Of a stretch of 64,000 nt of DNA, positions 9,085 to 60,654 are shown piece after piece. This DNA comes from Tubiluchus corallicola (taxonomy: Eukaryota > Priapulida > Priapulimorpha > Priapulimorphida > Tubiluchidae). How positions within the stretch are numbered: position 1 is the stretch's first letter; every line of letters starts with the position of its first letter. The notes beneath the pieces are model-generated. The model did no database searches. It worked only from the letters and a program-made list of their open reading frames with translations, and was not told the origin of the DNA. The stretch spans positions 151,501 to 215,500 of the forward strand of contig JAQGDQ010000294.1 in the NCBI GenBank assembly GCA_030141605.1. The letters are read 5' to 3'. Position numbers and translations under genes: made by a program.

Positions 9085-11472
9085 CATCAACAGTGCAGAC
9101 ACTGTCGCTGATATGTGATATACATGAAATAAGGCAAGACTCCAAGATGTGTGACGTGTGATCCGTAATGCGTATACAACAGTTTGTATTTAAACATGTA
9201 GAAGTGTTTCCATGTATATGTAATGCATCATCCATAATGCGTGATCCGTATTCATACTAACGTGATTACTATTGTCCGATTACACATGATGCAGCAGGAA
9301 ACCGCTGACTGGCGACCAATTCGAGTTAGGCGAGTTTTGGTCACTTCAGGACTTATAAACAATAATATTTGAGTTTTTGAGAGGGGAAGAAGTATGTAGT
9401 TATGTGTTGTGTATCTAACTGGAGTTTTTTCATTAAATCATGATTCGAATCATATTGTTTTCTCCCTTGCAAAATGCCGCGTACCCAAAACCTGTGCTTT
9501 CTTTTCCGTCTAATAGTACAATAATAAGCTAATGCTGCAACTGTAATTATCGTGGTTAAATTTCAACAGAGCATGGTTTCCAAAAATTATTGCTTGCAGT
9601 TTTCACGAATAGCGACCAAAGATGGCAGAAAGAGCACCGTGAGCTTTGTTAGTATGCATAGCGTTTACCGACAGTATACATGCATCATGCATTATGGATC
9701 GCAAATCACGCATCACGCATTACGTGCACATGGAGTCCCAGCTTTACACTGGCAAACCGAGCTTGGACAGAGATGGACACAGTTTAGTTTCAGCATTTAT
9801 GAACCTGACCATTATGGCTGTGACAACAACATTCGTTGTCTTTGTCTTATGTGTCAAGCAAATTATCGAAGAAGGCATATGACTGACTTTGATGTTTTGA
9901 GTGACTGCAAATGCCTCGACTTTTGTGCCGAATAAACACTGGCTTTACATCAGAACAGAGAAGTGTTGAAAACCCAGAAGTTGTGTATTAAATATCAAGT
10001 CAATGTAGTAACACTACCTACTGAAAAATATGGCCCAGTGTCATCTGTAAGATTAATACTCCATTTATAAAAAAAACTATACCAGTGTAGAGTTAGAACA
10101 CATTTTTTTATAAAATTTTGTTCATAAAGATTGAATGTGTTATTAAATTAAATGTAACAACTTATTTGTTTCAACAATATAAATATTCTTGCATTCATGT
10201 ATAAACAACGTATAGGAATTTTAATGAACAATACTGCTCCAGGATACCTTGAAGCACCTTGAAGTCAGTGTCAAGATATTAATCAAGGTCTTAGTTAAAT
10301 ATGCACAATGTACTGTTATAGAGCCAGAAAATCTTCGTAGGCTAGCGGATGTAGTTCTGTTGCACTATTTAGTGTGGATCAGTCCGCTGGAGTGCGGGAG
10401 TTTGGAGAAGAAAAAAGGCGGTAGAGTGTAGAATGTGGATTTAAGACAATTGTTTAATTTAATTTTAATTTTGAGTTACATCTCTTAACAGTTCGCGGGT
10501 CACTTCTTCTGGCGGAGGGACAAATTTTTACTTAAAATAGTTTTCCTTAAGTTTTTAGTGGAAAATAGTTTAGATGTATTCTTCTCTTTTCTAGCAAAGA
10601 TAGCAAAACTGTTTCACATTCTAATATTCACCAAAGTCGAAAGTTACAACGTAGTTATTACTTCTTTGGGGCGCGCGCATGCATACATCAGTTTGTCCCG
10701 ATGTGCTCAAATACTTCTGCTAATAAAACCACTAGCAGACTGCACAGCAGTAGAACATATATCTAGGGCTCTAGGCTTTTGTGCATAATTACACAGTTAT
10801 TTTGGGTGATCTAATTCCATAAATAGCATGCTGCTATGAAGAGAGATGCATTTATTTTTATGACATTGTTAATCACTGGCTCTGAGGTAACCTCCCATAG
10901 TCCCAGGTTACGGTACTAAAATCTCACATGCTATATAATATTTTAAAACTTTAAAGTGTTAACGGTGCTGACAGTTGATTTCAGAATCTGGCTTCAAATT
11001 ATAATTACCCTGTCAAGTGGTTTTCAAATTTTATGGGGCTTTACTCTTAACCTCCAGACCATTGCTGTAAACTCCCCTCCCCCAACTTTTCACCTCTGTT
11101 ACTGCAGATGTTTGGGATACCAGGATGAGGTGCATTACATTTATATGTGCAGCCTTTAAATTAGTACTTAAACACAGAGCACTAAATTAAAACCAATAGG
11201 TAAATGCTAGAACAAAAGTGTCAACCTGTCAAATATCAAACTCTGTTTCTCCAGAACAAGTTCTGTATTATTAAACCATTGAGTTTAACACCAAGTGTGA
11301 ATTAAGAAAAATATGAATAATGTGAAAGACGACTGAAAATGCTTAAATGAATAATTTTATGGCTTATGGCTACTTTAGATCTTTTCTCAACACACCTGAC
11401 CTATTATTATTGACAAGAAAAATGGACTGGTAAAATATTGCACTTTAAATCAAATTACATGCACACTACCAT
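9085..11472. other. Intergenic DNA between METTL7 copies 2 and 3, first part
   Basis: No gene supported. A short motif around ATCCATAATGCGTGATCCG and variants recurs in both orientations between about 9135 and 9735, possibly the arms of a decayed inverted-repeat element. Short open frames (for example around 9552-9935 and 10558-10788) have no recognisable protein pattern. Confidence 0.4.
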
Positions 11473-11818
11473 TAGGGTTGAGCATTCTCTACCAGAAAGC
11501 GAATTCGAATCGAACCGGACTTCAGTGTTTGGAATTCGAATTGAGATTGAAAGATTTTCGAACCACCAGTAAAAATTAGTCTTAACAAAGATCATGCATA
11601 TCACTCGATTTTGTTCTGCAAAAAAACGATTAGCAATTTGTTTAAAATTGTGCACAGAAATCACAGCTAAATTATGCCAATTACACGATGTTTCAATCGT
11701 TTTAATGATAAAGAACATTATGTGATTGAAGTGCTGAATCTATAGTTTTACGTTCGAATCGAGTTTGAACTAAAAAAAATCGTTCGAATTCGATTCGAAT
11801 GTTCGATGCTCACCCCTA
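11473..11818. mobile_element. MITE, termini TAGGGNTGAGCAT
   Basis: The left end TAGGGTTGAGCATTC and the right end (reverse complement TAGGGGTGAGCATCG) form inverted termini, followed inside by GAATTCGAATCG-type runs on both sides. The flanks (ACTACCAT and ACTACTAT) look like a decayed 8-bp duplication but do not sit perfectly at the ends. hAT-like by its termini. Confidence 0.6.
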
Positions 11819-11974
11819 CTACTATAATAAACGTACACGGTAGATTATAATTATAAAAGATGAATTAGTCATTAAATAAATATTTAATATTTTATTTTTT
11901 CTCAAACCACCAAACTTATGATTTTATTATCATTTATAAATTTATTTGTGGTTAGACGTCGATGTCCCTGGCTT

Positions 11975-12010
11975 GCTCGTTCTTGATCGTGTGCGCATGC
12001 GTCAATTTGG
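11975..12010 (+). promoter_or_regulatory. NRF1-like palindrome, candidate promoter of METTL7 copy 3
   Basis: GTGTGCGCATGCGTC matches the NRF1 palindrome (GCGCATGCGC) common in CpG promoters. METTL7 copy 3 begins at 12865, 24 bases after a clear splice acceptor (TTATAATTTTGTACAG ending 12840), so transcription probably starts upstream and a 5' UTR intron is removed. Motif-based inference only. Confidence 0.25.
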
Positions 12011-12864
12011 CTGATAACAAAATCCAATGCGCACAAGCTCACTGTTATTGCCTTTGATCTCAACAGTCGCCGGTAAAAATTAGGTTAAATCCGAATGTAC
12101 TTTCGACAGTGCAAATAGATAACTAATCAGATATTCCTCAATGTCACTGTGTTAACGAAACGAGGCTGCAGCAGAAAACTTTAGCGTGATTTCATACAAG
12201 AGTCACGTACAGTACCTTCAGCCACCAGCGACTGTAGCGAACAGAATATACGGCAAGTATTACCAGCATAATAATTAGTACTGCAGCATTGATATTTTCA
12301 TTTGAGATCTATATCAACCAGACTTTAAAGGAAGTGTAAATTGTTTTCGTATTATTTTTGTTGCCAGATGGCAACACCATGCAGCATTCGGCTTAAAGAG
12401 CTTAGTACGTGCAAAGAAGCCAGAAAGCTCTTTCGTGCAATAAAACAGCTTAGATGTTGTAAACACTGAAAATCAAGGTAAAGTAAGCTTGCAGCAGACT
12501 GATTTGTAAACAAAACCTGGTGTGTCCTTTTGCAGCACTTATAGTGTTTTATACGCCAGTACGAAGAGTGTACATACCTTATCAAGATGAAATAGAAAAT
12601 TTTGTCACATTGTTATTTGATTTATTTCCAGTTATTCAATTACAAATTGTTATAACATTGGGTAAATGAAATAATGACCTATTTTTGTATGCTAACTCCA
12701 GCTGAACTAATAATACGTAGCAATATACTTAGACACCTGTATTCGTGCTATCAAGTATCCGAAAATAAAAAATGCAACTTCTTATTGCAGATAGTTGCAA
12801 CTTTTTTATTAACACTTATATTTCTTATAATTTTGTACAGGCAGAAACAGATTTGGTAGTCAAC

Positions 12865-14595
12865 ATGGCCGAACAAGATGCAGTATTGTCAAGATGGGTT
12901 AGTCCCATATTTTTCATTATCATACTAATCCTATTTCTATGGAAACTAGGGATGCCAGTTTTTGTTAAACTCAGAAACAAAATATACGCCTACATTATGG
13001 ACAAAATTAGCAAACCTTACAACAAAGGTTTCCTAAAGCACACAAAACAAAAGTTATTCTCGGAATTAACATCACTAGAACATCCAGATAAACATCTACT
13101 GATTCTGGAGTTAGGTGCTGGGAGTGGTGCGAATTTTGAGTTCTTTCCCCCCGACTGCATAGTAACGTGCCTCGATCCAAATCCAGAGTACCAAGAATAC
13201 TTGAGGAAAAACCACGACCTCTTTCCACATATTGCCGAAGTAGACTTTGTGGTAGGAAGTGCAGAAAACATGAACATAGAATCGGAAAGTGTGGATGCCG
13301 TTGTAGCAACATTGATGATGTGCTCCGTTAAGCACTTGGAAAAGGTACTTAGTGAAGTCAAAAGAGTGTTAAAGCCGGTAAGTCCATGTTTAAATGCATG
13401 TGTAAATGTTTAGTTAAAATTAACAACACATTAACTAACCTAGCCGTAATTACAAGAATGACCCAGCAAGAATTAGTCGAGTGCTAAGTTTCTCATATTA
13501 GCTAAAGATGTTTCACAAAAGCATCAGCAGACAAATAATAACTGCATGGCTACAACTTAGTGGCTGAAGTTCATGCAAAGCCAAATCTTGGACGTAAGTG
13601 GATGGATGAGAGCTACGAAAATTGCCTCAGGATGGATGAATCTATCATACTATCTATGGCTATCTGCCTTGGTCAGAAGTGCTGTACATGAATCAGTGTG
13701 GCTTAAACACCGACTCAGTATCTCGTCCCTTCTATAATTTAAGTGTTCGTGCCACCTGGTTGTTCCATAGCCATTCCAGTGTGTGCTACTAATTCACCAC
13801 GTTATTCATTTTATTCATCTTATTGGCAGTACAAAATAATTTAAACTTTTCCTTTAGTTAGCGAAGAGTATCCCACAAATGTTCTGATTATTTTTTCAAA
13901 GTTTACGCAATGTTGTAAATGCACAAGGTAAACTTGTTTCACACGACTTGCCGACAAAATGGCTGCACCTAAAGGCCATAGCAGGAATTTGAATTTACAA
14001 GTTTTATACATGTGTAGCATTACTGTTAATGTACATGTCTCAAAAAGGCTAATACACATGTTAGTACGCGATAATACACATGTCAATAACTTCATGTCAA
14101 AAAGGCAGCATGTAACTGATATAAAATTTCAAGACAAATTTTTAAGCTTGATTTATGAAGTGTTTTCTTGTGTTGTTAACTGAACATTTTCAACAAAATT
14201 CTTAGAGTAATACCCATTGTTATGATTAAATTGTATTCTGTTTATTTTAGATTCATGCAAGTTGCAGCACTGCAAATAGCAGGCTTTAAAGCAAATGTGG
14301 AAAACTCATTAGCCAAGTTTTTAAGGCATGTGAATTAATCTTATTTGTCTCTGACTTGCAGGGTGGAAAATTTTTGTATTTGGAACATGTTGGAGATGAA
14401 ACGTGGAGCTTTGTAGCAGTATTGCAATACATTTTATATTTGCCGTGGTGGTTTTTATGTGAATGCAATCTTATACGACGGACTGGACAATATGTACGAG
14501 CAGCAGGTTTCTCCAATGTCGAGGAAAAGTCATTCAATTTGAAAACTAGAATTTTGTTCGTCAAACCACATATAGCAGGAGTAGCTACCAGATAA
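12865..14595 (+). CDS. METTL7: METTL7-like (TMT1) methyltransferase, copy 3
   Basis: Exons 12865-13377 and 14362-14595 join in phase 0 (donor CCG|GTAAGT, acceptor TCTGACTTGCAG): 248 aa. The ATG at 12865 (context CAACATGG) was preferred over an in-frame ATG at 12772 because an acceptor sits between them and because the protein then opens like copy 2, with a hydrophobic anchor at about residues 13-26. SAM-binding motifs are intact: LELGAGSGANF, Asp-Pro-Asn-Pro, Ala-Glu-Asn-Met, and the Arg-Pro-His-Ile-Ala-Gly-Val-Ala end. It shares long identical stretches with copy 2 (Asn-Lys-Ile-Tyr-Ala; NHDLFPHIA; ENMNIESESVDAVVAT), so this pair is the youngest duplication in the array. Expected role: membrane-bound small-thiol methyltransferase. 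Confidence 0.9.
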
Positions 14596-14617
14596 TTAAG
14601 AACTGTGAGTGAACGAT

Positions 14618-15091
14618 TACCGTATATGCTCGCATATAAGCCGAATTTAGAACCATAAAATACAATACTGAAATCAGGGGGTCGACTTATATGCGCATGA
14701 AACAAAATGAACACAAGGATAGACACTAATGCCAATTTTCCAGCCACACATTTTCATCGCTATCTGACTCTGGGTTTTCAAAAGTATGTTATTGATCAAA
14801 GAAAGGCTGGTGACAAAATATTTTCTTCTTTAATCATATCAAAATGTATAATTTCTTCTATTTCTTCTAGTATGTAACATAAAAGTAAGCATTTTACATC
14901 TTTATAGTAAAAAATTTCTATGAACCAAAAATACCCAATTAACAAAATGTGACAAAAAGGGATCAATTTTGTTGATTGGGTTTGGAGTAAAATTAGACAA
15001 GTTGATGGTCGGCTTATATACGGGTTTTTGCAAAAACTGGCCATTTTAAAGCAGTTTTAGGGGGTCGGCTTATATGCGAGTATATACGGTA
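14618..15091. mobile_element. Mariner-like MITE, ends TACCGTATATGCTCGC
   Basis: The left end TACCGTATATGCTCGCATAT is mirrored at the right end (GCGAGTATATACGGTA), and TATAAGCCGA-type motifs repeat inside. The terminal TA on both sides fits a TA target. It starts 22 bases after the stop codon of METTL7 copy 3, so it probably lies in that gene's 3' UTR. Confidence 0.75.
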
Positions 15092-15203
15092 TGTTAAATT
15101 GTTTTAAATATATATACTATTGTGTATGTAAAGTAGCAAAAAATAGTGAAATACCATCAATTACATATTCTAGTTTTTTGTTAGGACTTATATGCTTTGC
15201 ATT

Positions 15204-15365
15204 TTATAAAGTTCTAAGAAGCTGGGAAAAATGCAGTCAGCTCTCCCCAAAGTTTGAGCCCAAATATTTTACCTTCTGTTTACCTTATAAAGTTCTAAGA
15301 AGCTGGGAAAAATGCAGTCAGCTCTCCCCAAAGTTTGAGCCCAAATATTTTACCTTCTGTTTACC
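15204..15365. repeat. Perfect-looking 81-bp tandem duplication
   Basis: Two adjacent copies of a unit beginning TTATAAAGTTCTAAGAAGCT and ending CTTCTGTTTACC. They look identical by eye, implying a recent local duplication. Confidence 0.85.
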
Positions 15366-16683
15366 TAAATAGAAATTTACCTAGCAGCTTGTACTTTTGA
15401 AAAAAAAATAACTCAAAGGAAAATGGAGTTAACAATACTGAAAGCAAGAAAAAACTGATGGTACCCAGCAAAACCAGGTTGCATAGTAGTACAATGCACA
15501 CCACTTGATGGCACAGCAAACAAACTCAAAATTCGTTTGGAAATAACAGTCGGTCTTATTTTTTCCTATTACCAGTAACATGAATCAGTATTACGGAAGA
15601 AACAACTTTCGTTAGGAACTTTTTAACATAAAGATAGTAAAAGCGTTATGAAGCATGTTGAATTTACAATCTAGCTGTCATTTTTTGTTGTGATAGCCTT
15701 TACAAACAGGAACTAGTTTTTTCTTTTTATTTATAGACATGGCATACAACATGAAAATAACTAATTATGTACACACATAGAAACACGTAATGAAACAGAC
15801 CTGTAGAAAAAACATAGGCAATAAAAATAATAAATAAAAGAAGGCTTAATAGGATACATAGATAAACTGTTCTTCATTAACAGGTTGGCGTAAGTAGGCT
15901 TGGGGATGTAACAGGTGTGTATGGTGTACACAGTAACAGTGTACATAATAGATGTCTGTCACTGGGAAATATTGTACTTTCGTATTTTTGACTGGCTTCC
16001 AATCAAACACAAACTTTGTAAAATTAATGTGAAATTTACATTTGAGATCCCAGAAATTAATTAAGTGTCAACATCCTATTTGACTTGAAGTTTTTTAGTT
16101 CAGAACTTGTACAGATATACCAAAGGAAACTTGAACCAGTCTGAAAGTGTTAAACCGTGCATAGAGAACAACACTCCAATCATTTAGACGCACAGTCATA
16201 TAGTGTTACAAATGGAATTCATCTCCCTTTAACATAGAATACTGCTGTTTTTAATTAAGCCCAGGAAAAAATTTCTTTTCCCAACAGCAAAACACTGATC
16301 ATTATATTTTTATATAAACTATTACCAGCAATAATGAATTAACTTCATATTTTAGGTTATCTGCAAAATACCTTTTCCTACTGGTGGAAACTTTGTGCTG
16401 AGCAATGAATTCCAAAGTGGCTAATAGGTGTCAGCACGTTGCAACATTGAGCAACCAGCTGACTACCAAACAGCACACTGTACAGCCACAGTTGTTTACA
16501 ATACAATTCAGTGAATCCACGTGCTCAAAATGTATTCCGCGGCGTGTAGTGATGATATTATTGACTGCTCGTTTGGTTATAATTATGCAGGCTAGCCAGT
16601 GTCATTTAATGCAATAATTTATTGTATCCAAGTGCAACAAGCATAGTGATTAACTTTAGTATCAGTGTAAGCCCACCACAAAC
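15366..16683. other. Intergenic DNA between METTL7 copies 3 and 4
   Basis: AT-rich; I see no gene, RNA or clear repeat. The promoter and any 5' UTR exon of METTL7 copy 4 would lie here, but nothing distinctive marks them. Confidence 0.4.
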
Positions 16684-19089
16684 ATGTGTTTAAGTTGGAC
16701 GTGTCTTTCAGCATTCATTTTCATATTGTTAACAGTGATAGCTCTAAAAATCAACGTAATCATTGCCAGTTTTAAATCCATGTTCCATGCGAACTTGAGC
16801 AAAGAATGGATGCAGCGAAGAGCTAATAACTACAATAAAACAATGCACGATCACAAAACTTCGCTGTTTTCGGAAATCACAGTGATGGCTGGTCAGAAAG
16901 AACAGCTGGACATACTGGAGATCGGAGTGGGCACGGGTGCCAATTTCAAGTACTATCCGGAAAACAGTAATCTCGTCTGCACCGACTCAAACTCAGAATG
17001 CGAGAAATATCTGGCAGACATCAAGTACAGCTATCCGCATTTGTGTGAAGTGAAATTTATACATCAGAAAGTTGGTGATGACATTACTGGATCTTTGTCA
17101 GCAGAAAGCATGGATATAGTAGTTGGCACCCAAGTATTGTGTGGGGCCTATGATGTTGCCAAAGCTCTCAGTGCTATCAAAAGTGTACTTAGACCAGTAA
17201 GTAATGTCAAAAGAAAATTTTAAAACGTCTACAAATTGTACTTCTTAGTCACTTTCAGAAGCACTATTTGTACAGTCTACATCACGAATCATTTCTCCAG
17301 GGATTTATCCTACAGGGTCAAAGATGGATGCATGTTTAAAGGACAAGAAAAGGGGTACTTGGAGAAGGTTTCAGAAAAATCGCCTCAAAAATTATACTTC
17401 TTTACAGTAAATTTATGCTTGTATCGTGCTCACGTTAAAAGGAATCATTTTTGTTCTCATTTTAAATCTCATGCAATACTGTTCCGAAGTTGTCATTACG
17501 TTATGTCACCTACGCAAACGTAAATCAGAGGAAGAAAGGGCACTGTTCTGACCGCACAGTTACATGACATCACCTACGCACAACGTATATCAGAGGAAGA
17601 AAGGAAATGTTAAATTATGTCCCAAAAACCTTTCCATGAAAATCAGTACTACTTAACATTTCACTTACCTGTAATATAAGAAAATTTCACAGCAATTTTA
17701 TGTGTATATCGTACTCACGTTGAAAGGATTTCTTGTTTGTTTTCATTTTAAATCTCCCATAATACTGTTCTGACCGCACAGTTACCTGACATCACCTATG
17801 CACAACGTAGATCAGAGGAAGAAAGGAAATGTTAAACTATGTCCCAAAAAACTTTCCGTGCAAATCTATGTTACTTTGCATTTCGCTTACCTGCTGGAAA
17901 GATTTATGTAACTAGAAATGATAATTCAAAATGTTCGTGCCAATTGGAAAAATGTCGCTGGCTTACCCTCCAGGGTGCACCACTCACTAACCAAAAACGT
18001 ATTTTTAATCTTATTGACAAGATACAGCAATTTAAAATTTTACTTCGTTAGTACCATGCATATGCTACGCATGCTCTGGAAACTTCACGTATTGTTGTCC
18101 AAACTTCTTTCAAATGACCTACCGTTAAAATGGCTGCACCTAACGTCATCGCAGCAGTTTAAACTTACAAGTTTTATACAGCGTTACTGCCTATGCAAGC
18201 CCTGTAGTATGCAGTATGCAAGTGGTATAAAATTTGAAAACATTACAGATTTAAAGAGCAAAAACATGTTAGATGGACATTATAATGCCTGCACCTCAAG
18301 AATGTGTTGCCCAAAAAACAGATGCTGTACTTCTCATATCAGAGTTGTTCAGTTGTGATGTAGTGCACATGTTTGAGAGCTTGTGTGAGCACAGAGGGAA
18401 ACTTAAAATTTGCGAATTTTTATATGTCACACTGAATGTTGTACAGTAGCACTCTACTTCAATTTTCAGTTTCACAAACATGTGCAATACACTCGTAGAA
18501 TGTTTGTGCTCTTGAAAATTATATTCAGTTGTGATGTCATAACTCGTTGGGCTCGCCATTAATTAATTCTTTAACCTATTATTTAATTATCAGGAATGCT
18601 TTGGCATTATTACAGCTGTTAAAATGTATATTTTTACCATACTTGAAAATAGGATAGGATATGCAAAATCATCCTGTTTTCATTTAATTGGCTTAATTAC
18701 AAACTTTGAAAATCGCTTGACACTCAGCAATCAGGAACAAAATTCTAGCTATAAATACTAGACTAGCATGCAGTACGTTACAATCAAAAAGTGTGCCTGA
18801 CTGCTGTCAAGGCCAATGTTAAAGTGAAATCATATAGAGAAGTTGGTTTTTTCAGGGTGGAAAATTCCTCTACATGGAGCACGTAATGGCAGAACCGTTT
18901 ACACTACTGTGGATCAGTCAACATGTCTGTGAAATATTCTGGAGATTTACTTGTCATTGTTCATTATTATCTTACACTGGAGTTGCTATACAGAACGCTT
19001 CGTTTACAAGTGTAAAACAGAAATATTTCTATGCTGACCTGAGACAACCTTTAGTCAGACCTCATATAATGGGTGTTGCCATAAAATAG
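16684..19089 (+). CDS. METTL7: METTL7-like (TMT1) methyltransferase, copy 4
   Basis: Exons 16684-17196 and 18856-19089 join in phase 0 (donor CCA|GTAAGT, acceptor TGGTTTTTTCAG): 248 aa. An N-terminal hydrophobic segment (about residues 5-28) is the anchor. The glycine loop LEIGVGTGANF is the closest of the four to the vertebrate form, and the acidic residue after strand 2 is kept (Thr-Asp-Ser-Asn), though Asp-Pro-Asn-Pro is otherwise changed. The C-terminus keeps Arg-Pro-His-Ile-Met-Gly-Val-Ala. It is the most diverged of the three copies with complete SAM motifs. A poly(A) signal follows at 19236. Expected to be active; substrate unknown. Confidence 0.88.
17430..17900. repeat. Tandem-like repeat, about 223-bp period, in METTL7 copy 4 intron
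   Basis: CTGTTCTGACCGCACAGTTA occurs at about 17542 and 17765, each followed by CATCACCTA, CAGAGGAAGAAAGGAAATGT and a Met-Ser-Gln-Lys-like frame start; a third, decayed copy of the block ends near 17540. No coding role seen. Confidence 0.7.
18345..18690 (-). repeat. Interspersed repeat family A, copy 3 (inverted, partial)
   Basis: Shares GTTAAAATGTATA, ACTTGAAAAT and AAAATCATCCTGT-type blocks with 3880-4395 in the same order. Just upstream, AAAATGGCTGCACCTAA (about 18126) and the similar block at about 13957 mark another short shared repeat. Confidence 0.5.
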
Positions 19090-39939: not shown

Positions 39940-40801
39940 AAATGCAATCCTGAAAAATATATAGATCCCAGGTTGCCACAATAGATACAGGAAGTCTTGT
40001 GCCACACTTCGCGATCACAATGTTGTGGCGAATCAGCTAAGTATTTGCGAGAAACGTAGGGAACAACAATTTTACAATGTGAAATTATTTGGCAAGTGGG
40101 CGGAAGAGTTGGGACTACTTTTTTAGCAGACAGAAAGAAAACCGCTTTTCTGTTAAATTTTTTACAGAATTTGGTGTTATTTTGTATCTTTATGAGTTTT
40201 AATAAAAGCGTTTAGAGTTCTTATTAATCCATGTGTCTGATGCATCTGTTTTCGCCTGCCTGCGTTTGTTGTTTGCAGGTTGTCTGTTTTGTTTGAAACA
40301 AGCGCTTACCTGGATATCAGAGGAGGACGCCCATTCCCCCCTCGCAAAGGTAAAGTTTTTTGTTAAATTTAGTCATCAATGACCAATGGTAGAAGTGCTA
40401 CGCAGAACGCAAAAGAGGGGCATTTTCTACAAGTGTGGCCACCTATTTTCTTCATTTTTATTTTTAATAAAGTAAACAAAGAAAAGTGGAGAGGTCCATA
40501 CGCTGTTTATTTTCGACCTCTATCCTTCGACAGTAACGGTTACATTACATATTTAATTATACTACTACTATATTACCAGATCATAGATGTAATACAACTC
40601 AAGACGTAAATGCGCAAGTTTGTCGGTTGTTCAAATTCTACAATTTTGCATTGATACCATGTAAATGTATGATAGCTACTACTGACTTTGAAGGTTTGAA
40701 TCGGTTGTAATTGTAGTTACAAATTTAGAACCGAGTTCAGAATTGTTGAATTACCAATTATTGCTATTTAATCCTCTTTACAACCAAGACGTTATACTAG
40801 T

Positions 40802-41223
40802 TGTTAAGCACATACACGTTTCCCTACCTATTAAATGTGGTCTTGCCCCTTTAACTGTCATCAGTCATGTGACCAGGTAGTTGGCCAGGTAGACATTACC
40901 TGACATGCAATTCAATTGATATGATGTGAATGTTGTTGTTGATTTCTTATTGTTTTTTCTTGCAAGTTATAAGTGCCAAAACTCAGGGAGACCACATGTA
41001 AGTGTCTAATTATGTTTATTGAACTACTTTATGCTATTAGAACAATTTAGCTGTCATTTTTTTGTACAATTGTAGACGATAATCACGTTAGCTAATTTCG
41101 TAATGTACCTTTATCAAACTTACCTTTTTCATTGAAAACTTATTGCTGTAATTTATTATTACAGATAAAACGACAATTGCTGCATGTTAAACATTTGATG
41201 TTCTGGAGTTTAAATGTAGTACA
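40802..41223 (+). repeat. 5' LTR of the BEL/Pao element
   Basis: Begins TGTTAAGCACATACACG and ends AAATGTAGTACA. Differs from the 3' LTR by one extra T in a T run near 41060. Preceded by CTAGT. Confidence 0.95.
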
Positions 41224-41484
41224 GTTTTATATGCCTCGCCGGGAGTTTCATGTTGCCATTAAGCAGTGACCTTGGTTCAGGTGCAGGAAGTTTGACATGC
41301 TTACCTGATAGCTTTGCTCATTATGGGCTTCTACAGCGTAGCTGGTTTCTACAGGTAAAGCTGCATGAACTCTGTGAACTTGGACGCGTCAGCTAATGGG
41401 CAATAGATGGCGCTTCGGTCTTGAAAGGTGATCCTAAAATTTTTGCAAAAATTGACACTAAGAGCAATTTAATTTCAATTGAAA

Positions 41485-44400
41485 ATGGCATCAGTGTTAT
41501 TCACTAAAAGCGAACTGGAAAATAAAGTAGTTGAGAAGCTGATGCAAATTCTTCGTAGTATGTCTTTGTCGGTTTCTGGCAACAAGGCAAATTTAGTGCA
41601 ACGAATTTTGAAGCAACAGGAAACCGGTCCTTGTATACCAGGCGCTCCAGATGAATCAGCTGATTTATCGCCACCCTCAATAGCAACTGACCAACCCATG
41701 CAAGAGAAACGTAGGAGCAAAAAGTCCACCAAATCCTCGAGTGTGACGTCATCGAAGAAGAGTGCCAAGCTAAGAAACCAAGAGCTCATGATTAAAGAAC
41801 AAGAACTCAAACTCCAAGCGATGAGAATACGACATGAATGCATGCAGAATGAGTGTAGTTCTGAAGATGAACGTGATGAAGACAGCTTTGGTTCTGCAGC
41901 TGATGTTGAGACCAGGTTAGTGGACCATGGAACATCAGACTCAAAGGTCAAAGCATGGCTAAGGTCAAGGTCAACATACACGGATCCGACAGTTAAACAT
42001 ACACAAACTACATGCGAAAGCGATGAGAATTACTTGTCTGAGGCCTTTGTTACTTTAGCAACTACTGATAAGTATGCGTTGGGAGCACTTGTTCTTGCTT
42101 CTAGTTTGCGTCGCACAGGAACAATGAGATGCTTAGTCATCATGGTAACAGAGGGTATTTCTTGTGATATTATGACACTTTTGAGAAATGCATTTGATTT
42201 GGTTGAACATGTCAGTATTATTGATAGTCATGAGTTTAAAAGGTTACAATTGTTAGGAAGACCAGAACTTAATGTGAGTTTTACTAAGCTACATTGTTGG
42301 AGGTTGACACAATTTAGCAAATGTGTTTTTGTAGATTCTGATACAATTGTATTAGATAATGTTGATGACATGTTTAGATTTAAAGAGCTTTCAGCTGCCC
42401 CTGATGTAGGCTGGCCAGATTGCTTTAACTGTGGTGTGTTTGTTTACAAGCCAAGTATTGATATGTATAATAAGTTAATGTTGTATGCTAAATCAGAATC
42501 CTGTACTTTTGATGGTGGGGACCAAGGATTATTGAATCAGTTTTTTAAAGACTGGTCAACTAGTTATGAAAAACATTTGCCATTCACTTATAATGCTGTC
42601 ATTCAGGGTCGGTACGGATATTTACCAGCTTTAATGCAATTTGGGAAAAATGTAAAAATTGCTCATTTTTTAGGTCAACATAAACCATGGCACTATATTG
42701 AACACGATTCGCATACAGCTCACGTGGCGCCACCTGTTGGCAAAAAAGGTTATGAATTCGACATAATGAACAAGTGGATACAGATCTTTGATACTGACGT
42801 TAGGCCACTGCTGGAAAACAAAAATATTCGTTTGCCTATGCAGCATCCAAGTTCTGGAAATCAGTGTCTGAATGCATCAGCGTCTGCTTTTATTCCACTA
42901 GCGCATGGCAGTAATGTACCGCGCGAGAATAGGCATGGTTTTAATTCTACTCAACCTACCATTTGTACTGATAATTTAAGCGACATGCCTAATCAATGCC
43001 ATCCACAGAGCAATGACATGGCTATGATCATGAACATCATGCTTGAAGCACAACGTCAACATACCAACATGTACAAAGCAATGCAACTTCCAATAGCAGA
43101 GTTGGACAAATTTGATGGTAGCGTTCTAAACTTTTGGCAATTCATGAGACGTTTTGAAGCCAACGTCGAGAGCTACACACAAGATGAGGCTGCGAGGTTT
43201 CAGAGATTAATGCAATTTTGCACTGGAAAAGCCAAAAAAGTTGTGGAAAGTTGTAGCTACATGGATCCCAGTCGAGCATACAAGCATGCAAAGCAGTTAC
43301 TCGTCGACAGGTTCGGCTCCTCGTTTATGGTTACTCAGGCTTGGATGTCAAAAATAATCGAGTTTGACCAAATCAAGGCCAATGACAACGAGAAGCTGCG
43401 AGAATTTGCTGACTTACTTTTAAGCTGTGTCGAGACGTTGAAAGCAATGAATAATCTCAGCGAAATTAATACACAGACAAGTCTCGTTCAGATTGTTAAA
43501 AAACTGCCATACAAATTCCATGATAAATGGAAAGACGTGGTGTCCAGGATAGCAAAACATGAAATCAGAAACCCATGTATTTATGATTTGCTAACATTCA
43601 TTCAGGAAAATGCTGAAAAAATGAACCACCCTGTGTATGGTAGCCTCGGCGATTGGGAAAAACCTAAACGAAGCATCTCTGCCAAAAATTATGCCACCTC
43701 TGCTAAAGCACCTCAAGTTCAAGCAAACAATGGCAAGGCGAAAACAAATCAAGAAAAGCCGCAAACCAAAAGCGCCCAATTTTGCAAGAAAGTTTGCATA
43801 TTTTGCAACTCAAATGAACATTCTTCTCTTGGACAGTGTGAAGCCTTTGCAGCTATGGACACCCCAGCTAAGTTGATGTTCGTGCGTAAGGAACGCTTCT
43901 GCTTTAATTGTTTGGCGAAAGGAAAACATAGAGCAGCTAGATGTTTCAAACCGTCTTGTAGTGTTAATGAATGCAACAAGAAGCATTCGGCTTTATTGCA
44001 CGATGCAGTCTGGAGGCTGAGCAGTTCTTCTTCAGATGTTAATAGGCTTGCCAGGGATGAGCAGCAAAGAAAAGACGAGACTGAAGCTACAAGCTGTGCA
44101 AATAGGGGCAGTTCTAAAGGAAAGAAGATAGCATTGCCTATGGTCAAAGTTCAAGTACATGTACATGGAAGAAAGCCAGTTGAAGCCATGGCTCTGTTAG
44201 ACCCTGGATCTACAAACACGTTTTGTTCCAGGAAGCTGTTTGACAGCATAGGTGCTGAAGGAAAAGAGGATGTTCTTACCCTAACCACAATCGAGAAACG
44301 CCAAAGTAAAGCAGACACTTTAGTTACAAGTTTCGTTGTTACGGACAGCATTGGTGAAAACAGAATCATGTTGCCTCATGTTTTTGTTCGACAGTCACTG

Positions 44401-44988
44401 ATGCTAGATACAGAATGCTTGGCATCAGTCGCAGATGTTCAAAAATGGCCGCACTTGAAAGAGATAGCGTCATCGTTAGTTGAGTATCACGGACACGATG
44501 AAGACCTAAGCTTACTAATCGGTCTTGACGTACCTGATGCCTTGGCCCCTCTGCAAGTTAGACGTGGTCCTGTAAACGCTCCTTATGCTGTTAAGACGAA
44601 GCTGGGATGGACGTTGAATGGGCCTATAGCGGGTGGCAAAGTACGCAACGTGTCAGTAAATAATTACGTTATGGTCAAAGAGTCGAAACGCTGGAAATTC
44701 GGACCTAGATTCCTGATGCTACCAGAAGATGATTGGCCTCGAACTGATATGACTTCGCAGAAGGATTTATTACAAGGTGACAAAGAAGTGAAGCACTCTC
44801 CAGTTGTTAATACCATAACAGCGACGACAATGGATGACACACAGCGACAGCGTAATATCATAAATGACTTGATGGATTGTTATTCTTCATTCTACAAGTT
44901 GAAGAAAAGTGTTGCATGGTTTCTTCGGTTCAAAACAGTATTAAAGAACAAGTTGCCAAAGAGACTTCGAGCTTTCCAAACAAACTGA
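41485..44988 (+). CDS. Gag-GT8(glycogenin)-protease polyprotein of the BEL/Pao element
   Basis: Uninterrupted 1167-codon frame from the ATG at 41485. Residues 8-43 resemble a SAP motif and 94-123 a coiled coil, as in BEL Gag N-termini. Residues about 184-444 are a complete glycogenin-type GT8 domain: FVTLATTDKYALGALVLASS start, TKLHCW, the metal-binding Asp284-Ser-Asp286, ELSAAPDVGWPDCFN, DGGDQG (about 343-348), Tyr377 in RYGYLPA where the self-glucosylated Tyr195 of human glycogenin-1 lies, and Lys400 in HFLGQHKPW. Gag resumes near 533 (LPIAELDKFDGSVLNFWQF, DUF1759), zinc knuckles at about 771-787 and 806-820, and a protease motif LLDPGST with Asp906. At about 1060-1068 the frame passes directly into KRWKFGPRFL, a motif normally after RNase H, so RT/RNase H were lost in frame. 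Glycogenin makes UDP-glucose-dependent oligoglucose primers on itself; whether this copy is active is unknown. Confidence 0.93.
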   Translation: MASVLFTKSELENKVVEKLMQILRSMSLSVSGNKANLVQRILKQQETGPCIPGAPDESADLSPPSIATDQPMQEKRRSKKSTKSSSVTSSKKSAKLRNQELMIKEQELKLQAMRIRHECMQNECSSEDERDEDSFGSAADVETRLVDHGTSDSKVKAWLRSRSTYTDPTVKHTQTTCESDENYLSEAFVTLATTDKYALGALVLASSLRRTGTMRCLVIMVTEGISCDIMTLLRNAFDLVEHVSIIDSHEFKRLQLLGRPELNVSFTKLHCWRLTQFSKCVFVDSDTIVLDNVDDMFRFKELSAAPDVGWPDCFNCGVFVYKPSIDMYNKLMLYAKSESCTFDGGDQGLLNQFFKDWSTSYEKHLPFTYNAVIQGRYGYLPALMQFGKNVKIAHFLGQHKPWHYIEHDSHTAHVAPPVGKKGYEFDIMNKWIQIFDTDVRPLLENKNIRLPMQHPSSGNQCLNASASAFIPLAHGSNVPRENRHGFNSTQPTICTDNLSDMPNQCHPQSNDMAMIMNIMLEAQRQHTNMYKAMQLPIAELDKFDGSVLNFWQFMRRFEANVESYTQDEAARFQRLMQFCTGKAKKVVESCSYMDPSRAYKHAKQLLVDRFGSSFMVTQAWMSKIIEFDQIKANDNEKLREFADLLLSCVETLKAMNNLSEINTQTSLVQIVKKLPYKFHDKWKDVVSRIAKHEIRNPCIYDLLTFIQENAEKMNHPVYGSLGDWEKPKRSISAKNYATSAKAPQVQANNGKAKTNQEKPQTKSAQFCKKVCIFCNSNEHSSLGQCEAFAAMDTPAKLMFVRKERFCFNCLAKGKHRAARCFKPSCSVNECNKKHSALLHDAVWRLSSSSSDVNRLARDEQQRKDETEATSCANRGSSKGKKIALPMVKVQVHVHGRKPVEAMALLDPGSTNTFCSRKLFDSIGAEGKEDVLTLTTIEKRQSKADTLVTSFVVTDSIGENRIMLPHVFVRQSLMLDTECLASVADVQKWPHLKEIASSLVEYHGHDEDLSLLIGLDVPDALAPLQVRRGPVNAPYAVKTKLGWTLNGPIAGGKVRNVSVNNYVMVKESKRWKFGPRFLMLPEDDWPRTDMTSQKDLLQGDKEVKHSPVVNTITATTMDDTQRQRNIINDLMDCYSSFYKLKKSVAWFLRFKTVLKNKLPKRLRAFQTN

Positions 44989-46346
44989 CTGTTGCAGAAC
45001 TCGACTATGCAGAAGAAGAAATAATCAAGTATGTGCAGAAAGAGAGTTTGCCGAAAGAATATAAAGACTTAAGCACTAGTCAGAACTTTATTAAGTCTAG
45101 TTGTCTGGCGAAACTTGATCCATTCCTATGTGAAAAGCAACTTATTCGTGTAGGTGGCCGAATAAGGCATGCTGATGTCAACTATAATGCTAGGCATCCT
45201 GTTGTTTTACCAAAAGGACATAAATTATCACGTTTAGTCATCCAAGATTTCCACACTACGCATGGACATGCCGGCAAACAGCATGTAATGTCTTTGATCC
45301 GCCAGAAGTTTTGGATTGTTGGAATGCGTGGTATGGTACGCAAGCTTTTAGCTGAGTGCAGACAATGTAGATTGAATAGAGCAACGCCACTGCACCAGAA
45401 GATGGCTGACTTGCCTGTAGACAGATTGCAAAGCTCTGGAGTGTTTGCTACTGTGGGCACTGTTTGCTTTGGTCCAATTATGGTAAAATGTGGTCGCTCA
45501 GAAGTTAAACGTTACGGCATCCTTTTTACATGTATGGCTAGCAGAAGCATCCATCTTGAAGTTTTGTTCACGATGACAACTGATTCGTTCATAAAAGCAC
45601 TAGATAGGTTTTGCTCCAGAAGAGGTAAACCTGACAAACTAATGTCTGATTGTGGAAGTAATTTTCTGGGAGCAAACAAAGAGCTTCAAAAGTCTGTAGA
45701 ATCTTGGAACACCAATGTTGTCACAGAAAACTTACTTCAAAAACATATTGATTGGGACTTTTGTCCTCCTCGGGCATCTCATATGGGAGGAGCTTGGGAA
45801 GCACTAATTAAAAGTGTTAAAAAAGTTCTGCACTCAGTGGCTCAAGAGCAGGTACTTGATGATGAGGGTTTGAGCACCTTATTCTGTATTGTCGAGAACA
45901 TAGTCAATACAAGACCTCTGACCACAGCGTCTGATGATCCGAATGATTATGATTCTTTAACACCTAACCACTTCCTTCTGATGGGCAGAAATGCTCCTCC
46001 AATACTTCCACTGGGTCAGTTTTCTGCAGGAGATGTTTATAGGAAAAAGTGGCGACAGATACAATATCTTTCTAATGTATTTTGGAATCGCTGGAAATTA
46101 GAGTATTTGCCGATGCTCCAACAACGTTCAAAATGGCACAAAGAAAAACAGAATCTCAAGGAGGATGACGTTGTTCTAATTATGGATACAACTCCAAGAA
46201 ATTGTTGGCTGCTTGGACGTGTTGTAAAAACCCACGTCAGTAAGGATGGTCTGGTGAGGAGTGTCACCTTGAAAACCAAAGAGGGGTTTCTTAAACGTCC
46301 TATACACAAGTTGTGTTTCATTGAAGGTCAGATGATGAACGTGTGA
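44877..46346 (+). pseudogene. BEL/Pao integrase ORF, shifted one frame and missing a catalytic Asp
   Basis: The recognisable integrase begins around LTVAELDYAEEEIIKYVQ (about 44989) in the frame one base behind ORF1; ORF1 stops at 44988 within a 112-base overlap. An H2C2 module (His-x-x-x-His region then ECRQCRL), a DDE core (KRYGILFTCMASRSIHLEV, MSDCGSNFLGAN, SHMGGAWEALIKS) and a C-terminal domain ending at 46346 are visible. The second Asp and the Glu of the triad are present, but where BEL integrases have Asp in the V-G-x-D-x-F-G-P motif this copy has Val (45462-45464). No standard minus-one slippery heptamer was seen in the overlap, so the shift is more likely a mutation than programmed. 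Annotated as defective. Confidence 0.85.
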
Positions 46347-46396
46347 TTGCTTTTTTGTTAGGTGATAAATGCTCGTGGAGACATTTATGGGGGCGG

Positions 46397-46817
46397 TGTT
46401 AAGCACATACACGTTTCCCTACCTATTAAATGTGGTCTTGCCCCTTTAACTGTCATCAGTCATGTGACCAGGTAGTTGGCCAGGTAGACATTACCTGACA
46501 TGCAATTCAATTGATATGATGTGAATGTTGTTGTTGATTTCTTATTGTTTTTTCTTGCAAGTTATAAGTGCCAAAACTCAGGGAGACCACATGTAAGTGT
46601 CTAATTATGTTTATTGAACTACTTTATGCTATTAGAACAATTTAGCTGTCATTTTTTGTACAATTGTAGACGATAATCACGTTAGCTAATTTCGTAATGT
46701 ACCTTTATCAAACTTACCTTTTTCATTGAAAACTTATTGCTGTAATTTATTATTACAGATAAAACGACAATTGCTGCATGTTAAACATTTGATGTTCTGG
46801 AGTTTAAATGTAGTACA
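46397..46817 (+). repeat. 3' LTR of the BEL/Pao element
   Basis: Same sequence as 40802-41223 apart from one T fewer in a T run. Preceded by a G-rich tract and followed by the target duplication CTAGT. Confidence 0.95.
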
Positions 46818-46822
46818 CTAGT

Positions 46823-48884: not shown

Positions 48885-50534
48885 ATGAGTATTGAAGGCA
48901 TTCCTGGAAAAACCTTTTATGCAAAACACAACAAAATGAGTCTTCCTTGTGAAAAACGGGAAAGCAAGCTTTTAAAGCTAGAGAAATGTACTGAAATGAT
49001 GAGAAAAGAGCCCATCTTCAAGAGCTATGTTCCACAGTTGGCAAGGCATGATCCTCCGTTTTGTTGGAAGAGATTTTATCGACAGCAAGCTGCCTTTGAC
49101 TATATAAAATCCAGCCGCAGCAAAACTCTGCATGTATTTGCTTTTGAGAATGAAACTGGAGATGGTTCCAGGCAATATCTTGTAACATCCTATCAACAAT
49201 TCTGGCATACCTACAGTCAAATGGCACCTGATGATCGTCGTTATTACGAGATAATAGAAACTGGTAAAAAGTGTCATTTATACTTTGATTTGGAGTTTGA
49301 GAAAAGTTTAAATCCTGCCAGTGATGGAGCAAGAATGGTGGAGAGTTTTATTCTCTTTGTCTGTAGTCAGCTGAAAAAGCTGTGGGATATAGACTGTGGT
49401 AGGCAGCATGTTGTTGATTTAGATTCAACAACCGACTCAAAGTTCAGTCGACATTTGATTTTCAATCTACCAGGAAAAATTGCCTTTGAAAACAATTTTC
49501 ACGTTGGAGATTTTGTGAAATTAATAAGTTCAGCCTTGAAAGCTGCTAGAGAAGTGTCTGTTACATCTTTTTCTGTACCAGAATCAAGCATTGATGCAGT
49601 GATACAGTCTTACATAGATTCAAAAAGTCACATGTATATGATTGACCGAATTCATGCAGCCACATTGGACACCAGTATAGAATTATTTGAAGATTCGTGC
49701 ATATTGTCTGAGAGCACAGAGAAAACGTGTGTAAATGATACAACAACCATTTGCCGTTTGAATGCAAGTACTGATTTGATTAGTCCATCTGTCAACTCAT
49801 TTTGTAACAGGCATCAGCGAGTCTATCGTCACCGCCATCATCATCGCCTGACTGTAGATGAACTTTCTTCTTTGTTTGTTAAAGACAAAAATGATGAATT
49901 TCGATTGTTCTGTGACGAGGGTGTTTACACCCGGAACAGAAACTTTAGAATATTTCTTTCGCAGAAATCTGGAAAAAACAATCCTTTAGTGATATCCAAG
50001 GAGAACAAATTTCATCCGCAGAAGCTTCCTGGATGCTCAGATGATGGTGCATTCTTCTTGAGTACACTGGTGTCAAATGTTAGTTTGTCGCCTGACACCG
50101 AGATTCTAATTTGCCGAAAACGGCAGCAGATGGCAGAAGAGTTTGATGCGTCGTCAAGACTACCGGTTGCACATGACGTGCATCACGTTAGTTATGAAAG
50201 TTCGCCATTTCCTAGGATCGATGATTTTGTTTCGTCTGTTGTGAAAAACGAAGAAGGACGGGGTTGCATCAGAAACTGGACATACTTTGAAAAATCTGGG
50301 CTTATATCTTACGATATAACTGGAAATCGTTATTGTGATCATATTAAGCGACAACACAAGAGCAACAATATCATCATTGTTGTTGATTTGAAGAGATGCA
50401 TTTACTATCAAAAGTGCCACGATCCTGATTGCAGATCAGTTAACTTTAAATCACAAGAACATGCCATTCCATGTGCCGTATTTGATGTGTCTTCTGATTC
50501 AGCAGACAAAGGGTTTGTTCATGTGCAGAGTTGA
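48885..50534 (+). CDS. PRIMPOL: Primase-polymerase PrimPol, single coding exon, short C-terminus
   Basis: 549 aa in one open exon (human 560 aa). PrimPol is an archaeo-eukaryotic primase (AEP) that reprimes stalled replication forks in nucleus and mitochondria. Visible: the KSYVPQLARHDPPFCWKRFY N-terminus; AEP motif I LYFDLEFEK with Asp135 and Glu137; motif II DSTTDSKFSRHLIF; motif III CDEGVYTRNRNFR with Asp344; and the zinc module Cys484, His491, Cys511, Cys516 in YCDHIKRQHKSNN...YQKCHDPDC. A Ser/Asn-rich insert at about 265-320 contains a His-rich stretch (YRHRHHHR). Odd: the protein stops about 33 residues after the last zinc ligand, so the RPA-binding tail of vertebrate PrimPol is missing, and no intron interrupts the coding sequence, whereas vertebrate genes have many. 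The ATG at 48885 follows an in-frame-free 5' stretch; a second ATG at 48936 is possible. Poly(A) signals at about 51089 and 51111. Confidence 0.92.
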   Translation: MSIEGIPGKTFYAKHNKMSLPCEKRESKLLKLEKCTEMMRKEPIFKSYVPQLARHDPPFCWKRFYRQQAAFDYIKSSRSKTLHVFAFENETGDGSRQYLVTSYQQFWHTYSQMAPDDRRYYEIIETGKKCHLYFDLEFEKSLNPASDGARMVESFILFVCSQLKKLWDIDCGRQHVVDLDSTTDSKFSRHLIFNLPGKIAFENNFHVGDFVKLISSALKAAREVSVTSFSVPESSIDAVIQSYIDSKSHMYMIDRIHAATLDTSIELFEDSCILSESTEKTCVNDTTTICRLNASTDLISPSVNSFCNRHQRVYRHRHHHRLTVDELSSLFVKDKNDEFRLFCDEGVYTRNRNFRIFLSQKSGKNNPLVISKENKFHPQKLPGCSDDGAFFLSTLVSNVSLSPDTEILICRKRQQMAEEFDASSRLPVAHDVHHVSYESSPFPRIDDFVSSVVKNEEGRGCIRNWTYFEKSGLISYDITGNRYCDHIKRQHKSNNIIIVVDLKRCIYYQKCHDPDCRSVNFKSQEHAIPCAVFDVSSDSADKGFVHVQS

Positions 50535-58610: not shown

Positions 58611-59166
58611 TTAACGGTGATGCTGCAGATAACAAAAACAAAAGCAAATAAGAAAAAATAATAATAAAAACAGTATAAATGATACAAATTATCCAAAAAG
58701 AACTGAAAACAAAAAATAATAAAGTTATATACCTAAATCTAAACAAACCAATACAATTATTAAGTGATTAGGATTATTATATGTAGTAGTTTGAAATGAG
58801 ATCTTATTAACAGGGGAATTCGACCAAGGTTAGTGAGTAAAGTTAAAAACTGAGAGTATGGAAAAATAAGTATCAAAAAAGTGTAATATAGAAAAATTTA
58901 CGAGAAAAAGTAAGTATGAGAAAGAACAAGAATTACTTAGGAGATGAGGAGAAAAAAGAAAAGAAAGAAAGAAGTTGCTAGCTTGCTTATTAGTCTTACA
59001 AGTTATGTACTACAGGCATATCCATTTAGCAAGTTTTTGTGTATTTTTTGGAAGCAGAAAATAAGCTACTATAAGGGTATGAGGACAAAAAATAGCAGGG
59101 CTTCAATCTATTAAGTGTGCAAATGGAACTAAACTCAGTTAATATTGTTCTTTTCAGGAGAAGTTA

Positions 59167-60654
59167 ATGAGTCCTGGCTGCTTGCTATTTATCATTCTTA
59201 CTCTGTCCCTTTATTTGATCATTCGCAGAACAACAGTGTACACCCACAACAAATACAGGGGATATGTCGTCTTCTCTGCAGAAACCTTCTACGAAGGCGT
59301 TGCACCACCGGCAGCTGTTGATAACGAAGAGGCGCAGACAAAATGCAGAACTAAAAAGCCCGGTCCAGAAGAATTGCTCATCAACAACACTTACTGGCAG
59401 ATGGATGAGAGTGAGACAAACTTCTTCTTCAGTGCTTATTGGGATGGCAGAGAGATTAGTGTAGGTGGAGGAAAAGTATACCATGAAAAGGCTAATATTA
59501 TAAGAGTATTTGGCATGAGAGATGTTACACAGGGCAAGCCTAATTTGTTTTGCTATCTTTGGTACGGTGATCACGTGACTGTAGCCAATGTGAATGAGGA
59601 AATTATATGGTTCAATCAGCCAGGTCATATAGACATAGCAAATAAACGATCACAGTACCACCCATATCTCTATAACTGTCCAGTGAAAACTGCTGAGATT
59701 CCAGCCTACATCTCGTTGTCGACATCTTGGTGCAAAATTCCCACAAACTTACTGGAAGTAAAAGCCAGAAATTACACACAGCCCCGGAGAGATTTTGCTA
59801 TATGCGTGAAAGGTCTAAATTATGAAGATGACGTCTCCATAAAATTGATCGAATGGATCGAGATCAATAGAATATTAGGCGCAAAGAAAATTTTCTTCTA
59901 CAAGTACAGCATCAACCCAGCTGTCCAAAAGCTTTTAGACTATTATACCGACCAAGGAGTAGTTGAAGTACACACGTCAACACTTCCGGGACACCAGCCA
60001 AACAATCCCACTAATCGGACAAGATTTCTCGAAGTAAAGGTGTTGCAGACATGGATGGATGAAGTACTCATATATAATGACTGTTTCTATAATCACATGA
60101 AGGAATACAACTATATCATTCCACTAGACATTGATGAAGTTTTAGTGCCAACAAAGCACAGGACTTGGCAAGAAATGCTTCCTTGGGTGATCAAAACTAA
60201 TGTATACAAGGATCCTAACTCAAAATATAACACCATTGTAAAAAGATGCGGATCATACGAATTCAGGAACGTTTTCTTTTTGCCACAAATAAATAAAGAA
60301 CCTATTGACACTGTTCCAAAATATCTAACAACACTTCAGTATATAAAAAGAGTCAAAGAAACCTCAATATTAGGATTAAACATGAAAGGATTCTTTAACA
60401 CAGACTATGTGATTCTAGTCCACAATCACACACCCTTTAAGGTATTCTCCTATGTATGGAGCTGGTGCAGTGTTCAAGAACGCCAAGGGTTGTTGCATCA
60501 TTACCGTGACAAGTGCCCTACTGACGACTACACTCATCGCTGCAAAAATCTCAATGTAACCATAACAGACATGACAATGTGGCGATACACCGACGAACTA
60601 ACACAAAGAACAGAGAAAGCGATGAATGACTTAAGTATTCCAATACCAAAATGA
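59167..60654 (+). CDS. Family 92 glycosyltransferase (GT92, DUF23), type II membrane protein
   Basis: 495 aa in a single coding exon; a splice acceptor TTGTTCTTTTCAG ends at 59157, 9 bases before the ATG, so at least one 5' UTR intron is expected. GT92 enzymes (for example nematode GALT-1) add galactose to N-glycan core fucose or related acceptors in the Golgi. A signal-anchor helix spans about residues 4-20 with Arg-Arg after it. The GT92 core starts near 210 (RDFAICVKGLNYED), with LIEWIEINRILGAKKIFFYK, the metal-binding Asp321-Ile-Asp323 in IPLDIDEVLVP, and the C-terminal HNHTPFKVFSY region. Several N-x-S/T sites and paired cysteines fit a secretory-pathway protein. Length is normal for the family. 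The donor and acceptor specificity cannot be read from sequence. A poly(A) signal overlaps the 3' end at 60659. Confidence 0.92.
   Translation: MSPGCLLFIILTLSLYLIIRRTTVYTHNKYRGYVVFSAETFYEGVAPPAAVDNEEAQTKCRTKKPGPEELLINNTYWQMDESETNFFFSAYWDGREISVGGGKVYHEKANIIRVFGMRDVTQGKPNLFCYLWYGDHVTVANVNEEIIWFNQPGHIDIANKRSQYHPYLYNCPVKTAEIPAYISLSTSWCKIPTNLLEVKARNYTQPRRDFAICVKGLNYEDDVSIKLIEWIEINRILGAKKIFFYKYSINPAVQKLLDYYTDQGVVEVHTSTLPGHQPNNPTNRTRFLEVKVLQTWMDEVLIYNDCFYNHMKEYNYIIPLDIDEVLVPTKHRTWQEMLPWVIKTNVYKDPNSKYNTIVKRCGSYEFRNVFFLPQINKEPIDTVPKYLTTLQYIKRVKETSILGLNMKGFFNTDYVILVHNHTPFKVFSYVWSWCSVQERQGLLHHYRDKCPTDDYTHRCKNLNVTITDMTMWRYTDELTQRTEKAMNDLSIPIPK

Follow-up and report, generated by a model that had tools for sequence, protein, structure and literature searches.

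What is a sugar-polymer-starting enzyme doing inside the capsid precursor of a retrotransposon? A 64,000-nt stretch of DNA from the priapulid Tubiluchus corallicola (GenBank assembly GCA_030141605.1, contig JAQGDQ010000294.1, positions 151,501 to 215,500 of the forward strand), referred to here as the window, contains a BEL/Pao element that is bounded by long terminal repeats (LTRs) and spans positions 40797-46822. The first open reading frame of this element (ORF1, 41485-44988, + strand) encodes Gag followed by protease and carries, at 42034-42816 (+ strand; residues 184-444 of the ORF1 protein, to which all residue numbers refer), a glycogenin-type catalytic domain of family GT8. Glycogenin is a homodimer; its dimers bind manganese and UDP (uridine diphosphate)-glucose, and a tyrosine on the partner chain receives the glucose. 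A sequence-only reading of the window had proposed that a complete glycogenin domain was captured from an mRNA as a single piece of cargo. Our analysis upholds the complete domain within Gag and makes its mRNA origin likely, but does not support the single captured cargo, as GT8 is very probably an old, selected and shared domain of a BEL/Pao lineage rather than a one-off passenger.

Results

A complete glycogenin catalytic domain within the Gag-protease frame

ORF1 is free of stops over 1167 codons, while the remaining two forward frames contain 72 and 120 stops. Pfam assigns GT8 to this frame with an E value of 4e-14, and residues 3-261 of the 261-residue product of 42034-42816 align with glycogenin-1 (E 8e-84, against solved glycogenin structures); the product has both the GT8 fold and the full length of the glycogenin catalytic domain. 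A Foldseek search with the predicted model of the domain, which has a mean pLDDT (predicted local distance difference test) of 76, returned glycogenins as the top PDB matches, with a TM-score (template modelling score) of about 0.8 by query length. Asp284-Ser-Asp286, Tyr377 and Lys400 all lie where the sequence-only reading had put them. In a model of residues 151-735, the capsid (CA) region is well predicted and all-helical, GT8 is of mixed confidence and the intervening linker is of low confidence; the overall pTM (predicted TM-score) of 0.44 means that the relative placement of GT8 and CA is not readable from this model.

GT8 is shared by many copies and several subfamilies

A search of the same genome (an assembly of 343.5 Mb, for which all search counts are lower bounds) with ORF1 as query gave at least 54 matches, from 40 scored of 510 candidates; among those listed are the window copy, seven loci at 92-98% identity, many at 36-64% and pieces of a further near copy. 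GT8 is found upstream of CA in all 28 loci fetched (L004-L031, with L004 being the window copy), and a match to the Gag N-terminus also precedes GT8 in 20 of them. These loci had been drawn from a query that itself holds GT8, and the search was therefore redone with CA alone, which yielded at least 151 matches; 83 of these were cross-matched with the GT8 search, under the criterion that GT8 lie no more than 3 kb upstream. At CA identities of 48% or more, 29 of 31 matches had such a GT8, the other two being partial and containing stops; at identities of 41-47% the count was 8 of 19, and at 40% or less 0 of 33. Six or more element subfamilies carry GT8 at the same place in Gag, and because the Gag-GT8 arrangement recurs at many genomic sites, an assembly artefact is unlikely to account for the join. 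Five contigs of this assembly (G000: C1796, C2016, C2136, C2140 and C2209) show an identical match pattern, representing either recent copies or redundant assembly.

Two loci contain unbroken Gag-GT8-Pol frames of more than 2,200 codons. The Pol pieces of these two copies are stop-free and 44-48% identical to BEL Pol from before the YVDD motif to the end; they contain Peptidase_A17, H2C2 and DUF5641, along with RVT_1 (and, in one copy, rve) below the curated cut-offs. Since these long frames with stop-free, BEL-like Pol carry GT8, the domain belongs to full-length Gag-Pol and not to deleted copies only. A SAP domain, found at the Gag N-terminus of the window copy, is also present in the GT8-bearing loci L015 and L018, below the cut-off in L013, and in L065, which has no GT8; SAP thus occurs in Gag with and without GT8 and is apparently an older, second addition to the same Gag.

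Catalytic residues and selection on GT8

Among the 28 loci, 21 have a near-complete GT8 and were scored, while seven with split frames or partial GT8 were left unscored. The self-glucosylated tyrosine is retained in 21 of 21 copies and the D-x-D motif in 19, with E-x-D in the remaining two (L024 and L025); across the same 21 copies, 40-46 of the 47 sites that are invariant in 124 cellular glycogenins (enzymes matched in searches with the same window element) are retained. L024 and L025 form the most divergent GT8 family, and E-x-D might alter their metal use. Among the open GT8 copies that were aligned, FNCG is confined to the window copy, and the remaining 16 read FNSG.

When the six subfamilies were compared by one representative each, GT8 was 46-61% and CA 38-65% identical, with a correlation between the two (r 0.90) that was reached by 17 of 720 permutations; because the identities correlate, GT8 seems to have travelled together with the capsid. 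Columns identical among the six representatives comprise 36 of the 47 cellular-invariant sites, as compared to 40 of the 214 others (P 6e-14). Between close GT8 pairs (27 printed), the ratio of nonsynonymous to synonymous substitution rates (dN/dS) was below 1 in all 25 for which it was computable; two further pairs had no silent change, with one being identical and one showing three amino-acid changes. Pooled over six disjoint pairs, which were picked after the pairwise table had been seen, the dN/dS of GT8 was 0.38 (P 1.9e-5 versus neutrality). According to the sequence-only reading, a lack of other GT8-bearing copies together with evidence of artefactual joins, or neutral decay between copies, would have counted against it; instead, other copies carry GT8 at the same Gag position and dN/dS between copies is below 1, which together make a passive passenger unlikely and rule against a recent single capture.

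Origin of the domain

The host glycogenin gene is split into at least five separate coding blocks over approximately 5 kb, with GT/AG near the block edges in a loose check, and the element GT8 domain has no intron; the intron-bearing host gene presumed in the sequence-only reading is thus present in this genome, and the element domain is likely to derive from processed host mRNA. Absence of introns alone is no proof of retro-capture, as a nearby PRIMPOL-like gene (window positions 48885-50534; a single open frame of 549 codons matching a PDB primase/polymerase chain at E 2e-67) is also intron-free. Glycogenin-like exon matches were also seen on both strands of G000:C2318:606-2567, a contig other than that of the host gene (C2137), and represent a second gene, an allele or a fragment. 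A 498-bp stretch of GT8 without CpG (42112-42610) has the same length in five of six scored copies of the window subfamily and is absent from every other subfamily scored; a reading of this depletion as the trace of a methylated host gene captured only recently was rejected because other subfamilies do not have it and some have a depleted CA instead.

The 12 element GT8s included in a mixture-model tree cluster together (support 83/97, not a starred branch), with the host glycogenin as their sister neither shown nor rejected (approximately unbiased [AU] test, P 0.2). A tree without the mixture model left the GT8s of L024 and L025 apart from the other 20 of 22 element GT8s and near the host gene. 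An earlier tree, in which a single GT8 represented the elements, gave a long branch near flatworms; this weak placement was superseded by the later trees. Three same-genome elements without GT8 (L065-L067) have a matching coiled coil, W motif, short linker and CA, as well as SAP, which was scanned in L065. At the site of the KVxxWL motif, after which GT8 is inserted, two of these GT8-less sisters have TRDWV, followed by only a short linker in the alignment. In the CA tree, L065-L067 are the sister group of the L024 family, which bears GT8, and a single clade of GT8 bearers is rejected (AU P 0.0025); this calls for one loss, a second gain or a between-family exchange. A gain that predates the split, together with one loss, agrees with the GT8 tree and with the shared site of insertion, while a second gain or an exchange is possible; one origin of all element GT8s is supported but not firm.

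Organization of the window copy and neighboring genes

The window element is flanked by CTAGT target-site duplications (40797-40801 and 46818-46822) and its remaining features lie on the + strand. The 5' LTR (TGTT...TACA; 40802-41223, 422 nt), which also occurs in sister copies at 94-99% identity, differs from the 3' LTR (46397-46817, 421 nt) only in the length of a T run, by a single T, which suggests that this copy inserted recently; the LTRs and the 5-bp duplication outside ORF1 agree with the sequence-only reading. The stretch after the 5' LTR (41224-41260) was inspected for a tRNA primer-binding site by eye only. Within ORF1, a SAP domain (residues 21-43, 41545-41613; Pfam E 1.6e-5, just over the cut-off) is followed by a stretch of charged residues aligned with what is a coiled coil in relatives, by the KVxxWL motif (residues 154-159, 41944-41961), which is the last aligned Gag feature ahead of GT8, and by GT8 itself. 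After a linker come the CA region (residues 536-735, 43090-43689), identified by alignment, by the all-helical, high-confidence part of the model and by DUF1759 (residues 543-686, E 1e-8); a Cys/His zinc-knuckle region with invariant Cys/His columns (residues 771-839, 43795-44001); and a retropepsin-like protease region (residues 861-1065, 44065-44679), recognized by alignment, tblastn and a weak aspartyl protease match below the Pfam cut-off (0.031). A polypurine tract (46388-46396) precedes the 3' LTR. In keeping with a BEL/Pao element, the window copy has two LTRs, a short target duplication, a polypurine tract, DUF1759 in Gag, and both integrase and DUF5641 in Pol.

Reverse transcriptase (RT) and RNase H are absent from the window copy according to Pfam and to alignment with relatives, and the flanks of a junction with a 6-nt overlap at 44679-44684 sit approximately 1.7 kb apart in one same-genome sister copy. 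The integrase part of Pol (44991-46343; H2C2, rve below its cut-off, and DUF5641; 98% identical to a sister copy) follows a frameshift and is not in the ORF1 frame. The RT-before-integrase order of BEL/Pao is thus missing from the window copy and present in its same-genome relatives, which identifies the window copy as a deleted member of a BEL/Pao family; since it has no RT or RNase H and its integrase is in another frame, this defective, internally deleted copy probably moved with enzymes from relatives. These losses, as well as FNCG, had not been noticed in the sequence-only reading. Elsewhere in the window, positions 59143-60651 encode a GT92-family glycosyltransferase in one open frame, and 616-17220 contain four + strand ORFs with methyltransferase domains, which may form a tandem family.

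Discussion

A putative self-glucosylating Gag and its alternatives

As the best overall explanation we propose, and consider probable, that an old BEL/Pao Gag domain has been kept as an active glycosyltransferase with Gag as its substrate. In this scenario, the catalytic domain of a glycogenin entered a BEL/Pao lineage whose Gag had SAP and a coiled coil, most likely through template switching onto a spliced mRNA, at what may have been a loose linker ahead of the capsid domain; GT8 was then retained as the lineage diverged into six or more subfamilies. GT8 is predicted to bind manganese and UDP-glucose and to glucosylate the conserved Gag Tyr377 between paired Gag chains, with self-glucosylation taking place in or before the particle; particles would then bear short glucose chains, or glycogenin-like dimers might hold them together. 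We infer self-glucosylation with short chains because the metal, nucleotide and acceptor sites are kept and the synthase-recruiting tail is absent in the window copy. With nearly the same confidence we lean towards catalysis as the function under selection on the Gag GT8. More tentatively, Gag dimers could glucosylate a tyrosine of their own shell in such a way that particle assembly, stability or visibility hinges on the UDP-glucose of the cell.

A number of observations weigh against this explanation. The existence of a GT8-less sister family indicates that this type of element can do without the domain. One subfamily (L024, L025) has E-x-D, key residues are altered in single copies (FDGG to FVGG in L009; FNSG to FNCG in the window copy), and the window GT8 retains 89 of 101 sites that are 90% conserved among cellular enzymes, which is below all 124 of the latter. 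The C-terminal glycogen-synthase-binding tail is absent after residue 444 of the window copy by alignment, and a pattern search of all six frames of the window, which covers this copy, did not find the glycogen-synthase-binding motif. At short range, GT8 is also less constrained than CA (pooled dN/dS of 0.38 versus 0.19), and the close pair that has three amino-acid changes but lacks any silent one is L005-L006. Finally, a single clade of GT8 bearers is rejected by the CA tree, and L024 and L025 stand apart in the GT8 tree without a mixture model.

Some of these points would suit a cargo that is carried unused, as would the defective state of the window copy; we nevertheless regard a passive passenger as highly unlikely given dN/dS values below 1 in every computable close pair, a GT8 divergence that is about as slow as that of CA, and retention of the catalytic residues. 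A role of GT8 as a dimerizing or UDP-sugar-binding module for Gag assembly, with catalysis unused, is easier to reconcile with active-site changes in some copies, with a GT8-CA linker that is probably loose in the model and with the homodimeric nature of glycogenin; such a scaffold would not need the acceptor tyrosine, though, and the metal, sugar-nucleotide and acceptor sites are mostly fixed while approximately half of the residues vary between subfamilies, so that we consider a scaffold unlikely. The retained active site would also serve glucosylation of host proteins, or docking of Gag on glycogen or glycogen-making complexes, but the conserved tyrosine indicates self-modification and the window copy is missing the glycogen-synthase-binding tail, making this possibility quite improbable. 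As for history, separate acquisitions of glycogenin by Gag in at least two subfamilies, or transfer of GT8 between families, would account for the CA tree, which joins the L024 family to its GT8-less sisters, and for the placement of L024 and L025 GT8 near the host gene; we find them doubtful because the insertion place, just after the KVxxW motif, is identical and the mixture-model tree unites all 12 element rows, even though joining of the host gene was not rejected in that tree either.

If Gag does glucosylate itself, the capsid would be glycosylated by its own activity, with the particle protein being the enzyme that starts a sugar polymer. The family makes a case for a capsid that may modify itself and for a mobile element linked to carbohydrate metabolism, with the enzyme kept through deep diversification of the element lineage; GT8-bearing and GT8-less sister families within one genome represent a natural experiment.

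Comparison with known systems

Literature searches found no published description of glycogenin or another glycosyltransferase inside Gag. No Gag-GT8 fusion was annotated by Pfam among 120 listed of 651 protein-database matches or among 29 Gag-based protein matches, with candidates confined to 642-2042 aa, a range that does not include Gag-Pol proteins of approximately 2,200 aa from other species; in BLAST comparisons of GT8 with 23 of these 29 (the other six, with short or no CA match, being left out), the best E value was 0.033 (P0133) and none was credible. The GT8 and integrase pieces had no relatives among viral contigs, for which a profile search gave three loci at 26-28%. Relative to animal glycogenin, the element domain shares the GT8 fold, metal site and acceptor tyrosine; it differs in that the window copy is embedded in Gag and has no glycogen-synthase-binding C-terminus.

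The maize LTR retrotransposon Bs1, which has no RT, resembles the window copy in this respect and in having a host-derived piece inside an LTR element. The host gene pieces within Bs1 are described, in the portions of the reports used here, as segments that are not full-length (PMC13317346, PMC5408686), whereas the window family has a whole catalytic domain, several subfamilies and persisting long Gag-Pol frames. A single Bs1-like transduction would give one non-autonomous family; GT8 is instead spread over six or more subfamilies, of which some have long Gag-Pol frames. Accessory enzymes of retroelements (PMC9289625, PMC5408684) and capture of host mRNA by LTR elements (PMC13317346, PMC5408686) are already known, as far as the parts of these sources consulted go. 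LTR-mediated retroposition in animals, in which template switching joins the RNA of an element to a host mRNA (Tan et al. 2016, as cited in PMC5408686), is the same likely route of capture as for the element GT8; it yields retrocopies of host genes, and the section cited does not mention a lasting element domain. LTR elements of bdelloid rotifers are likewise animal retroelements with accessory enzymes, namely a GDSL esterase, a DEDDy exonuclease or a dUTPase, with esterase and exonuclease being ORF3 products; the abstract names no Gag enzyme and no glycosyltransferase (PMC5408684). Orchid Ty3/Gypsy elements, according to the passages drawn on here, are also an LTR retrotransposon lineage with a fixed host-type enzyme domain, an AlkB-type N6-methyladenosine (m6A) demethylase with activity shown in vitro (PMC9289625); this is an RNA demethylase in a separate ORF, in a plant and in another superfamily, whereas here a glycosyltransferase is fused inside Gag. 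In the cases compared here, domain capture took the form of add-on ORFs or partial host segments, while in this BEL/Pao lineage a metabolic enzyme is built into the capsid precursor.
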